64,000 bases of DNA, from the NCBI GenBank assembly GCA_027858915.1, contig JAQIBT010000120.1, positions 1 through 64,000 of the forward strand, given 5' to 3'. The notes under the pieces are model-generated. The model saw only the letters and a program-made list of their open reading frames with translations, was not told the origin of the DNA and did not search any database. This DNA is from Salinisphaera sp. (GTDB lineage Bacteria > Pseudomonadota > Gammaproteobacteria > Nevskiales > Salinisphaeraceae). The first letter of the stretch is position 1; each line of letters starts with the position of its first letter. Below are positions 2,965 to 6,410 of this stretch, piece by piece. The position numbers and the translations under genes are program-made.

Positions 2965-3077
2965 GTCGAATCAATTGTGCCCAAATGATGGCAGTATTCT
3001 ACGCTGGACGGCCGGCTTTACGCAGCTGTTCATCACACTATTGCAAGTACAGGGGGGCCACACTACTGTGGCGGCGC

Positions 3078-4457
3078 ATGAAGATTATTATCCTCGGGGC
3101 TGGCGAAGTCGGGGCCACGCTGGCCGAAAACCTGGCCAACGAAGCAAACGATGTCACTGTGGTCGATATCAACGAGGCTCTGCTGCGCCCTCTTCAGGAT
3201 AGGCTGGACATCCGCGCCGTGCACGGCTATGCCGCGCACCCGGCGGTGCTGCGCGACGCCGGCGCCAATGATGCCGACATGATCATTGCCGTCACTGCGG
3301 TCGATGAGATCAACATGATCGCCTGTCAGATCGCCTATACGTTGTTCCATACGCCGACCAAGATCGCACGTATTCGCGCCTCGGAATATCTGGTGGAGGA
3401 TCGGTTGTTTCACCAGGACGCGATCCCGATCGACATGAGTATCAGTCCTGAACAGCTGGTGACCGAACACATCACCCGGCTGATTCAGTACCCAGGCGCG
3501 CTGCAGGTGGTGGACTTCGCTGACGGCCAGGTTCAGGTGGTAGGCGTGCGCTCGTATTATGGTGGCCCGCTGGTCGGCAACGAGCTACGCGCGCTGCGCG
3601 AACACATCCCGAACGTCGATACCCGCGTGGTCGCCATCTATCGCCGCGGCAAGCCCATGATTCCTCAAGGTGATACCGTGATCGAGGCGGACGACGAGGT
3701 ATTCTTTGTCGCTGCCCGTCGTGACATCAAGCAGGTCATCGCCGAACTCCGCAAAATCGACCGCCCCGTCAAGCGGGTGATGCTGGCCGGCGGCGGCAAT
3801 ATCGGCACGCGCCTGGCGTTGGCGCTCGAGAACCAGTACCAGGTCAAGGTGATCGAACACAATCCGGAACGCGCCGGCTGGCTGTCGGAACGCTTGAACC
3901 GATCCATCGTATTGAAGGGCGATGCGGCCAACGAGGCGCTGCTGCGGGAGGAGAACATCGAATCGGTCGACGTGTTCTGCTCGGTGACCGATGATGACGA
4001 AGCCAATATCCTGTCGGCGATGCTTGCCAAGCGTCTCGGCGCGCGCAAGGCGATGTCGCTGATCAATCGCCTGGCCTATGTGGACCTGATCGAATCATCG
4101 GGCACGCAGATTGATATCGCGATCTCGCCCAAGCAATCCACCATCTCGGCGCTGCTTGCACACGTGCGTCGCGGCGATGTCGTGCGGGTACACACGCTGC
4201 GGCGAGGCGCAGCGGAGGCAATTGAGGCAATCGCGCACGGCGAGCGCGGTAACTCGCGCGTGGTAGGCCGGCGGATTGACGAGATCAAGTTGCCGCCGGG
4301 CTCTACTATCGGCGCCATCTCACGCGGCGATGAAGTGCTGATCGCCCATCACGATACGGTGATTGAATCGGGCGATCACGTGATGATATTCATCATCGAG
4401 AAAAAACACACGCCGGAGGTGGAACAGCTGTTCCAGGTCGGCGTTAGCTACGTCTAG
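3078..4457 (+). CDS. trkA: Trk potassium transport NAD-binding protein TrkA
   Basis: TrkA is the peripheral regulatory subunit of the Trk K+ uptake system; it binds nucleotides and gates TrkH. The 459-residue product is a tandem of two RCK modules. The first Rossmann motif is [10 protein letters not shown] (about 7-16) and the second [11 protein letters not shown] (about 236-246), each followed by a C-terminal TrkA_C domain. I chose the ATG at 3078 because it gives the standard [12 protein letters not shown] start; the frame extends upstream without homology. trkH lies downstream, separated by 459 bp that contain a transposon-like insertion. Confidence 0.96.
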
Positions 4458-4629
4458 GCGCCTGTCGGGCTTGAGCAATCGTAACGAGCAAGGTGGAACA
4501 ATGAGCGCAAATGAGCGGATTTTTGAGGCCCAAACCAATGGCGAACGTGGTTCTATTTAACGAGAAAAGCCGTTTATTTGAGCCGTTATCCCGCCGGCGC
4601 AGTAGATTGGCCTCGAGTCCGGCAGGCGC
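4458..4629. other. trkA-to-element spacer
   Basis: No gene is visible. The sequence around 4503-4520 resembles the dispersed short repeat with core TCCGCAAATGAACG that flanks the helicase gene at 12-15.7 kb. Confidence 0.3.
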
Positions 4630-4914
4630 CTAGTGTCCTGTCACGGGTATTTTGTCGCATTCAGCGAGGCTGCGCGCGTCTGTGGCAAGGCGCGTCGCGC
4701 CGGCAAAGGTCATTCCCTTGCCGAGCGGCGCAACGCAGACCACGGGCGCGCGCAGCCTCGCCCCACAGGCCAACTTATTCGATGGGAGCGTCTGTGTGTC
4801 CCAATCACCGCGTTGCGCTCCTTTGCCATGGCAGGCCATGACGCAGTCGCGCACCTTGTGCTTGGAACACACAGACGCTCTGAATACGGCAAAATACCCG
4901 TGACGGGACACTAG
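4630..4914. mobile_element. 285-bp MITE-like element with 34-bp terminal inverted repeats
   Basis: The ends 4630-4663 and 4881-4914 are inverted copies matching at 31 of 34 positions. Both begin CTAGTGTCC and include GTCACGGGTATTTTG. A second, inner inverted pair (4787-4810 and 4857-4880, GAGCGTCTGTGTGT plus flanking bases) makes the structure nested. No credible transposase is encoded, so this looks like a miniature non-autonomous element. The outer CTAG could be a target duplication or part of the repeat. The right tip ends 2 bp before the trkH start codon. The terminal motif GGGACACTAG recurs at 39365-39374. The family is unknown to me. Confidence 0.7.
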
Positions 4915-4916
4915 CC

Positions 4917-6410
4917 ATGGCGCTGTCTCTGCCGCGACTCCCGGCACTCGAGATCAACTATTACTATGCCGTGGTCCAGCGTGTGCTGGGCCTGCTGTTG
5001 ATGATTTTCTCGTTTTCCATGCTGGTGCCGGTCGGTGTGGCCCAGATCTACGGCGACGGCGAGACCGAGGCTTTCCTGATCGGCTTCGCCATTACGCTGA
5101 TCACCGGTCTGGTAGCCTGGTTCCCGGTGCGCCACGTGCAGCGCGAACTCAAGATCCGCGACGGCTTTCTTGTCGTGGTGCTGTTCTGGATGGTGCTGAG
5201 CCTGTTCGGGGCCATCCCCCTGTGGCTGGCGGTCCGGCCAGACATGAGCTTCACCGATGCCACGTTCGAGTCGGTCTCCGGACTGACCACGACTGGCGCC
5301 ACCGTGCTGATCGGCCTCGACACGCTGCCCCACGCCATTCTGTTCTGGCGCCAGCTGCTGCACTGGATGGGCGGCATGGGCATCATCGTGCTGGCAGTTG
5401 CCGTGCTGCCGATGCTGGGTGTGGGTGGCATGCAGCTGTATCGGGCCGAGACGCCCGGCCCGATCAAGGATTCCAAGCTCACACCGAGAATCAGCGAAAC
5501 CGCCAAGGCGCTGTGGACCCTGTATGTGTCGTTCACGGCCGTGTCCGCGCTGTTGTTCTGGCTCGCCGGCACGACGCCGTTCGATGCCATCAGCGACGCG
5601 TTCTCGGCAATCGCCACCGGCGGCTTCTCCAACCACGATCTGTCGCTGGGCTATCACAACAGCGCATTGGTAGAACTGGTCGCGATCTTCACCATGTTGA
5701 TCGGCTCGATCAGCTTCGGCATGCATTTTTCGATCTGGCGCAGCGCCAACCCGCTGAACTACTGGCGCGACGCCGAGACACGTACGTTCCTGATCATGAT
5801 CATGCTCGCCACCTTGGTGACGACCGTGGTGCTGATGGCTTCGGGTACCTTCGTCGACCTGCCGGACGCTTTTATCAAGGCGCTCTTCCAGGTTCTGTCA
5901 ATCGGCACCACCACCGGTTTCACGACGACAGACTACTCGGTCTGGCCGAGTTTTCTGCCAATGTTCCTGCTGCTGGGCAGCTTCATCGGCGGTTGTGCCG
6001 GCTCCACGACGGGCGGTATGAAGGTCGTGCGTTTTATCCTGCTGTCCAAACAGGGCACCCGAGAAATCAGCCGGCTTGTCCACCCCAACGCCGCCATTCC
6101 GATCAAGATGGGTGGCAAGGTCATTCCCGACCGGGTCGTGCACGCCGTATGGGGGTTCTTCTCGGTCTATGTGACTGTATTTGTGATCATGTTTCTGATA
6201 CTCCTGTCGACCGGCCTGAACGAATTGACATCGTTTTCGGCAGTAGCGGCCACCATCAACAACGTCGGCCCGGGCCTGGGTGAGGTGTCGTCAAACATGG
6301 CCAGTATTCCGACCCTCGCCAAGTGGACGCTCTGCATGGCGATGCTGCTCGGACGCCTGGAAGTATTCACCCTGCTGGTCATTCTCACACCTGCCTTCTG
6401 GCGCCGATAA
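4917..6410 (+). CDS. trkH: Trk potassium uptake transmembrane protein TrkH
   Basis: TrkH is the K+-conducting membrane subunit working with TrkA. The 497-residue product has the expected ten or so membrane segments. The four selectivity-filter loops are visible as TTTGATVL (about 119), ATGGFSNHD (about 233), TTTGFTTTDY (about 331) and NNVGPGLG (about 446). The ATG at 4917 gives the normal TrkH N-terminus. The ribosome-binding region lies inside the tip of the inverted-repeat element just upstream, so expression may depend on that element. Confidence 0.96.
   Translation: MALSLPRLPALEINYYYAVVQRVLGLLLMIFSFSMLVPVGVAQIYGDGETEAFLIGFAITLITGLVAWFPVRHVQRELKIRDGFLVVVLFWMVLSLFGAIPLWLAVRPDMSFTDATFESVSGLTTTGATVLIGLDTLPHAILFWRQLLHWMGGMGIIVLAVAVLPMLGVGGMQLYRAETPGPIKDSKLTPRISETAKALWTLYVSFTAVSALLFWLAGTTPFDAISDAFSAIATGGFSNHDLSLGYHNSALVELVAIFTMLIGSISFGMHFSIWRSANPLNYWRDAETRTFLIMIMLATLVTTVVLMASGTFVDLPDAFIKALFQVLSIGTTTGFTTTDYSVWPSFLPMFLLLGSFIGGCAGSTTGGMKVVRFILLSKQGTREISRLVHPNAAIPIKMGGKVIPDRVVHAVWGFFSVYVTVFVIMFLILLSTGLNELTSFSAVAATINNVGPGLGEVSSNMASIPTLAKWTLCMAMLLGRLEVFTLLVILTPAFWRR

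Follow-up and report, generated by a model that had tools for sequence, protein, structure and literature searches.

The trkA–trkH interval

The window, meaning the whole 64,000-nucleotide stretch of Salinisphaera sp. contig JAQIBT010000120.1 analyzed here, carries trkA (2985–4457, forward strand, as the open reading frame is listed, although its true start may lie further in; TrkA_N and TrkA_C matches) and, on the same strand, the potassium-transport gene trkH (4917–6410; TrkH match, PF02386). The 459 bases between them contain two repeats, element B (4454–4633) and element A (4630–4914), with the CTAG at 4630–4633 in common. Element A, whose coordinates extend to the C and G that flank it within its CTAG sites and rest on repeats, copies, and fold, is an inverted-repeat element without a transposase. 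Its left terminal inverted repeat (TIR) lies at 4630–4657 (forward strand), with a CTAG that is also the right end of element B, and its right TIR at 4887–4914 (reverse strand) ends two bases before the trkH ATG. Two inner hairpins, recognized from repeats, fold, and covariation, occupy 4664–4761 (forward) and 4786–4880 (reverse).

A sequence-only reading of this stretch had proposed a miniature inverted-repeat transposable element (MITE), citing 34-base ends that match at 31 positions, a nested inner inverted repeat, the lack of a transposase, and a right tip abutting the trkH start codon; each of these observations holds. The ends are identical at 31 of 34 positions, and a repeat tool gives arms of 43 nt with 86% complementarity (4630–4672/4872–4914), as well as nested inner repeats at 4664–4685/4740–4761 and 4786–4808/4858–4880. 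Open reading frames within the element reach 105 aa, none of them transposase-like by eye; the tips contain only a short outward frame ending in VTGH-stop, like that of an S. japonica transposase described below. The tip ends at 4914 and the ATG begins at 4917, and the bases directly 5′ of the trkH start, where the ribosome-binding site had been placed, are those of the tip. The predicted fold has an energy of −185.5 kcal/mol, whereas 200 dinucleotide shuffles average −109.5 (sd 5.3) and none is as low; the fold is also strong as DNA (z −12.8).

The claim that element A separates trkA from trkH stands insofar as the element lies within the gap, but it does not do so alone, since element B precedes it. 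Element B is a second palindromic repeat with CTAG at both ends, a fold z of −6.7, and 20 matches in the genome including itself. Its tips are close in sequence to AGGAGGCTGTCGGACTCAAG, the family being variable in size and end bases, and give 45 tip matches in the window's own genome against 4 for the reversed control; loci of this family include L125, L126, L127, and L224, besides the window copy. Element A adjoins a B-like repeat at C144 and C16 as well.

In all 15 relatives read (15 of the 16 other genomes of the family, G001 being left out), trkH lies close behind trkA, at distances from overlapping codons to about 90 bases with starts judged by eye, and element A is missing from every one of these junctions; the insertion is thus at an otherwise empty site. 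Copies elsewhere, CTAG flanks, and empty sites show, by sequence comparison, that the pair was split by two insertions in this lineage. The target is the CTAG at 4454–4457 (forward strand), which contains the TAG stop codon of trkA; elements B and A, in either order, would have entered the CTAG formed by this codon. On one reading, removing both would give TAG-CC-ATG, the kind of arrangement found in the relatives. Because TAG is restored at the junction, the TrkA protein is unchanged, and trkA–trkH offers a clear example of two adjacent genes parted by insertion with the protein undamaged.

Copies, target sites, and termini

The window's own assembly (G000; 4.3 Mb in 169 contigs) contains element A at 28 places, the 28 best of 54 rows returned by a 285-base query; the remaining rows are mostly extra pieces of those 28 places or matches between tips. 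The copy number is uncertain: many of the copies are at the ends of contigs, where two of them may represent a single divided copy. A tip pattern matches 35 sites in the same genome and its reversed control none, so the suggested check for further copies of the ends turned out positively. The copies fall into two subfamilies that differ in their tips, and among 17 genomes of the family, tips occur in G000 and G013 only. The element is therefore multi-copy, bounded by TIRs, devoid of transposase, and absent from trkA–trkH in 15 relatives, rather than a solitary sequence retained upstream of trkH in diverged species; its identification as a MITE is confirmed. A truncated copy at L031, about 1433–1525 (G000:C10:73456–73548), appears to provide the final codons and the stop codon of trpS (..LARE-stop). 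At another locus, in G013, two element tips face each other head to head and are nearly contiguous (L054, about 1485–1525).

Among 47 tip rows from G000 and G013, CTAG is present in 34 and TA at the junction in 38, with 9 lacking TA there; one of the remaining rows is a chance match. Flanks of the CTAG type cannot separate TA from CTAG as the target, and at one site in G013 that is not a CTAG, the copy (L058/L104) is flanked by TA on either side. The tetranucleotide is rare in the window's own genome, with 248 occurrences in 463 kb against 1638 expected from base composition. Several tips sit on TAG stop codons of host genes: of 10 scanned proteins that end at a tip TAG, eight (six in the own genome, two in G013) reach or nearly reach the end of their NCBIfam model, namely RelA/SpoT (model position 699/702), cystathionine beta-lyase (376/377), cardiolipin synthase (459/483), Fis (97/98), NusB (130/131), a sugar dehydrogenase (425/425, at a short solo tip only), and, in G013, a HisP-like ATPase (252/257) and PurB (454/456, at the site ATAG). 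Of the other two, an asparaginase-like protein matches models only partly and one protein has no NCBIfam match; six copies in the own genome thus sit on stop codons of complete-looking genes, in addition to that in the asparaginase-like gene. The solo tip at the sugar dehydrogenase stop codon, about 20 bases long (L130 717–740, G000:C73), was perhaps left by a lost element. A special preference for stop codons was considered and set aside. By rough gene calls, the 248 background CTAGs comprise 19 stop codons, 121 sites within genes, and 108 intergenic sites; since insertion at the 121 genic sites would be selected against, target choice together with loss of such insertions may suffice to explain the pattern.

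The termini resemble those of the IS630 family. IS630 itself reportedly prefers the TA in CTAG as its target, and IS870 reportedly requires CTAG to complete its open reading frame with a stop codon. A complete insertion sequence in S. japonica has ends CTAGTGTCCTGTAAC and a 365-aa transposase (NF033545, 284.6 bits), and the transposase in G005, a genome of the same genus, matches that of S. japonica YTM-1 with 100% identity. The tip of element A agrees with remnant L115 in the own genome at 25 of 33 positions and with the right end of L110 at 24 of 33, the 12 outermost bases being identical; agreement with the left end of L110 is 19 of 33. Among 44 IS630-type relatives inspected (of 80 retrieved; L131–L194, several phyla), 37 have the transposase stop codon in the flanking CTAG.

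The sequence-only reading had also called for an autonomous element with the same termini, and this was borne out in part: IS630-family elements with similar ends exist, but no intact partner was found in the own genome. A PF13358 search there returned four transposase fragments, none intact; in G013 it returned five 355-aa copies and one fragment, and the ends of the two copies that were read are of another kind. No intact IS630 transposase with element A ends was found in the own genome or in the complete genome G013. Searches with the tip pattern for an autonomous element gave no match in genome_contigs (own and near records left out) or in viral contigs, and across 369 genomes of the class (G005 and G012 included, G013 not) the pattern occurred in the own genome only. 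The mover is accordingly deduced from the ends: an IS630-family transposase would move element A, inserting it at the TA inside CTAG.

A conserved hairpin module and its polarity

Inside element A, one hairpin module occurs twice, as an inverted pair. Covariance model R1 recovers a first copy at 4677–4745 (forward strand; 80.4 bits), which was in the model-building alignment, and a second, inverted copy at 4801–4867 (reverse strand; 31.9 bits, E 8.4e-6), which was outside it. Direct comparison of the two halves reveals only weak likeness (score 49, with 2 of 500 shuffles as good, and 46.5 in the other orientation), and it is the model's recovery of the second copy that settles their relationship. 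In 12 copies from two species, both-side changes affect 16 of 103 pairs, in the inner hairpins as well as the TIRs; the numbers of paired cells and the covariation score exceed those of all 500 shuffles, while further pair types do not (35 versus 36.4 in shuffles).

The module is widespread. An 81-base probe matches 22 of 369 genomes of the class (the own genome among them), at loci that are elements of about 270–300 bases with TIRs and two hairpins, the TIRs often being different; TA stands on both sides in 13 of 19 loci with a full outer repeat (by eye), and in many of the loci a sequence-profile search detects two modules in inverted arrangement. Across 41 two-module elements, the spacing of module starts is 105–110 bases in 35, 121–129 in five (124 in the window), and 92 in one. 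An alignment of 42 modules has a mean column identity of 67%, with both-side changes in 13 of 17 predicted pairs. With the covariance model, the module is detected in 108 of 369 class genomes, representing 86 of 271 genera (E 0.001), and in 69 of 398 phylum genomes, 34 of them from other classes (E 0.0001). A plasmid search over 72,556 records gave a single match, Azotobacter chroococcum pAcX50f (53 bases at 88.7%), and a phage search gave none. An apparent transposon in G220, suggested by inverted modules 1.5 kb apart, resolved into two distinct elements flanking an ordinary gene. No earlier description of the two-hairpin core was found in the open literature; subscription papers lay mostly outside this search, and a prior description is possible.

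The same core occurs behind different ends. Ends of the type TAGTGTCC, found on L291, L307, L310, L334, and L352 as well as the window element, resemble IS630 ends, and the L352 end CTAGTGTCCTATCCCGCAAAT is close to those of IS630 relatives. Ends of the type CTAGGG(T/C)CTGTTGACGTTT are found on the Azotobacter element L282 and on elements in genomes such as G555, which are taken as Pseudomonas relatives on the strength of their plasmid matches. Viral contig L396 carries an IS5-family transposase (NF033580, 277 bits) between CTAGGGTCTGTTGACGTTTTG and TGTCAACAGACCCTAG, the ends of the Azotobacter element, and the core is therefore present behind the ends of two transposase families. The IS5-type partner was seen in this viral contig only, a tip search in seven genomes having found none, and a second viral-contig pattern gave 0 matches. 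Further end types on module-bearing elements, such as TAGTRCTC, ATTAACCCGG, and GGGAAACTCTGCACG, have no assigned transposase. At several sites in G555:C1, the IS5-type tip also forms inverted pairs whose starts are only about 33–40 bases from each other, resembling small independent palindromes.

A role of the palindromes solely as double-stranded DNA would predict equal numbers of G.T and A.C mismatches in their stems. In the stems of the 41 two-module elements, there are instead 104 G.T and 14 A.C (53 and 10 in left hairpins, 51 and 4 in right; 78 of 82 stems used); stem by stem, G.T predominates in 54, A.C in 7, and 17 are tied. As a control, the TIRs of 38 of these elements give 12 G.T and 15 A.C. 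Stems taken in module orientation under a neutral alignment rule yield 75 and 10 (43 passing the score, from 64 of 91 hits). The core itself yields 130 and 20 across 91 modules, or 56 and 11 across 43 representatives below 80% identity, counts for which the alignment was fitted to the model; core pair 27–67 is biased oppositely (12 A.C, 2 G.T). Such counts are not independent, as several elements come from one genome. The strand bias suggests that each hairpin is maintained in a folded, single-stranded form, probably as RNA.

We favor, with reasonable though far from complete confidence, a reading in which element A is a CTAG-targeting MITE moved by an IS630-family transposase, with an interior consisting of an inverted, widely conserved module that is maintained as a single strand of fixed polarity and would act as RNA. 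The module would face inward from each end, and with this polarity, whichever side a transcript enters from, the hairpin that it reaches first would form in its well-paired version. The most likely function would be in shaping the 3′ end, or the processing, of a neighboring gene's messenger; with such a role, an insert would be tolerable behind stop codons.

It is also conceivable, though in our view unlikely, that element A is an ordinary IS630 MITE, its interior shared through spread between genera or as transposase binding sites, and the polarity an artifact of mutation bias. MITEs are common, the target and ends are IS630-like, and nine places in G212 have equal scores of 82.6 bits, suggesting recent copies. 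A strand-biased mutation process could, moreover, generate G.T mismatches with no RNA function involved; against this the TIR control is no safeguard, since TIRs have no polarity. However, the core modules are diverged (67% mean column identity, n=42) and rich in compensatory changes, which is not what simple recent spread would leave; the same polarity appears in both halves; and the occurrence of the core behind IS630-type and IS5-type ends argues against a binding site of one transposase.

The fixed polarity could alternatively belong to a folded single strand of DNA, serving as a substrate in replication, plasmid transfer, or transposition, a prospect that we judge quite improbable. IS5 elements move by cut and paste. 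DNA, too, can accommodate G.T pairs, the element has a strong predicted DNA fold (z −12.8), and relatives reside on plasmids; yet the IS630 relative ISY100 is also described as a cut-and-paste mover (PMC2170065), which speaks against a single-stranded DNA form.

Possible consequences for trkH and comparison with known repeats

In this lineage trkH now stands 459 bases from trkA instead of close behind it, and its start region is the right TIR. In the predicted fold of 4400–5000, the right TIR before the trkH ATG pairs with the left TIR, so that RNA reading through from trkA would bury the trkH start in a stem. It is thus probable, as judged from the modeled fold, that the trkA messenger is a poorer template for trkH translation or that trkH depends on a different transcript, and reduced or uncoupled translation is plausible. 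The suggestion that the element provides a promoter found no support, there being no sigma-70 promoter match in 4400–5000; a search of the same interval for an intrinsic terminator also gave no match. A second trkH-like sequence lies at G000:C126:39747–40010 and is 70% identical to the start of the window trkH; given this match, lowered trkH might be tolerated. That the stretch is instead an ancestral regulatory leader of trkH, such as an attenuator or riboswitch, is highly improbable and was rejected: a very strong fold does stand immediately 5′ of the ATG, but it is missing before trkH in the 15 relatives read, has many copies beside unrelated genes, and, searched against Rfam 15, gives only two microRNA matches far below the gathering score in the window, with no match at that score in 14 related loci.

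The usual account of MITEs takes each genome separately and sees in them decayed copies of a single insertion sequence. The present elements tentatively suggest something broader, an idea to which we give somewhat less than even weight: a phylum-wide, mobile, strand-specific hairpin (RNA or single-stranded DNA), usually accompanied by its inverted copy, may outlive any single transposon family by acquiring ends from unrelated transposases (IS630 and IS5) with CTAG as a common target, and may spare its host by inserting at TAG stop codons and supplying the neighboring messenger with a ready 3′ hairpin whichever way it is transcribed. The significance lies in one folded core being recognizable in 108 of 369 sampled class genomes, behind different ends and with evidence of selection on one strand. 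If this is true, a non-autonomous element can persist for long as an independent lineage, exchanging one transposase for another, and a shared function that can be tested lies behind many of the unannotated hairpins found beside genes.

Several known repeats invite comparison. REP and REPIN sequences are intergenic inserted palindromes with proposed effects on messenger 3′ ends, linked to RAYT transposases. Element A resembles them in being inserted between genes and in the effects envisaged, but its ends fit DDE transposases and long TIRs. MITEPsy1 of Pseudomonas syringae, in the portion of the report available (PMC3189936), is likewise small, with a CTAG or YTAA target and perhaps an IS5 origin; it differs in its length of 100 nt and a reported 4-base duplication, and that portion describes no two-hairpin core. 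Element A shares its CTAG target with IS630 and IS870, the placement of transposase stop codons in flanking CTAGs being the further parallel, but unlike them it has no transposase, only the VTGH-stop frame being left in its tips. We take Correia/NEMIS, RUP, Nezha, and Chunjie to be MITEs similar to element A. These IS630-family and similar MITEs, as presented in part of one source (PMC10969869), are short, bounded by TIRs, and without transposase, and, like element A, they are often intergenic and strongly folded and may influence their neighbors. Unlike them, element A has as its interior an inverted pair of a conserved module, found in 86 of 271 sampled genera of the class and joined to several end types, and it targets a CTAG that serves as a stop codon in several copies.
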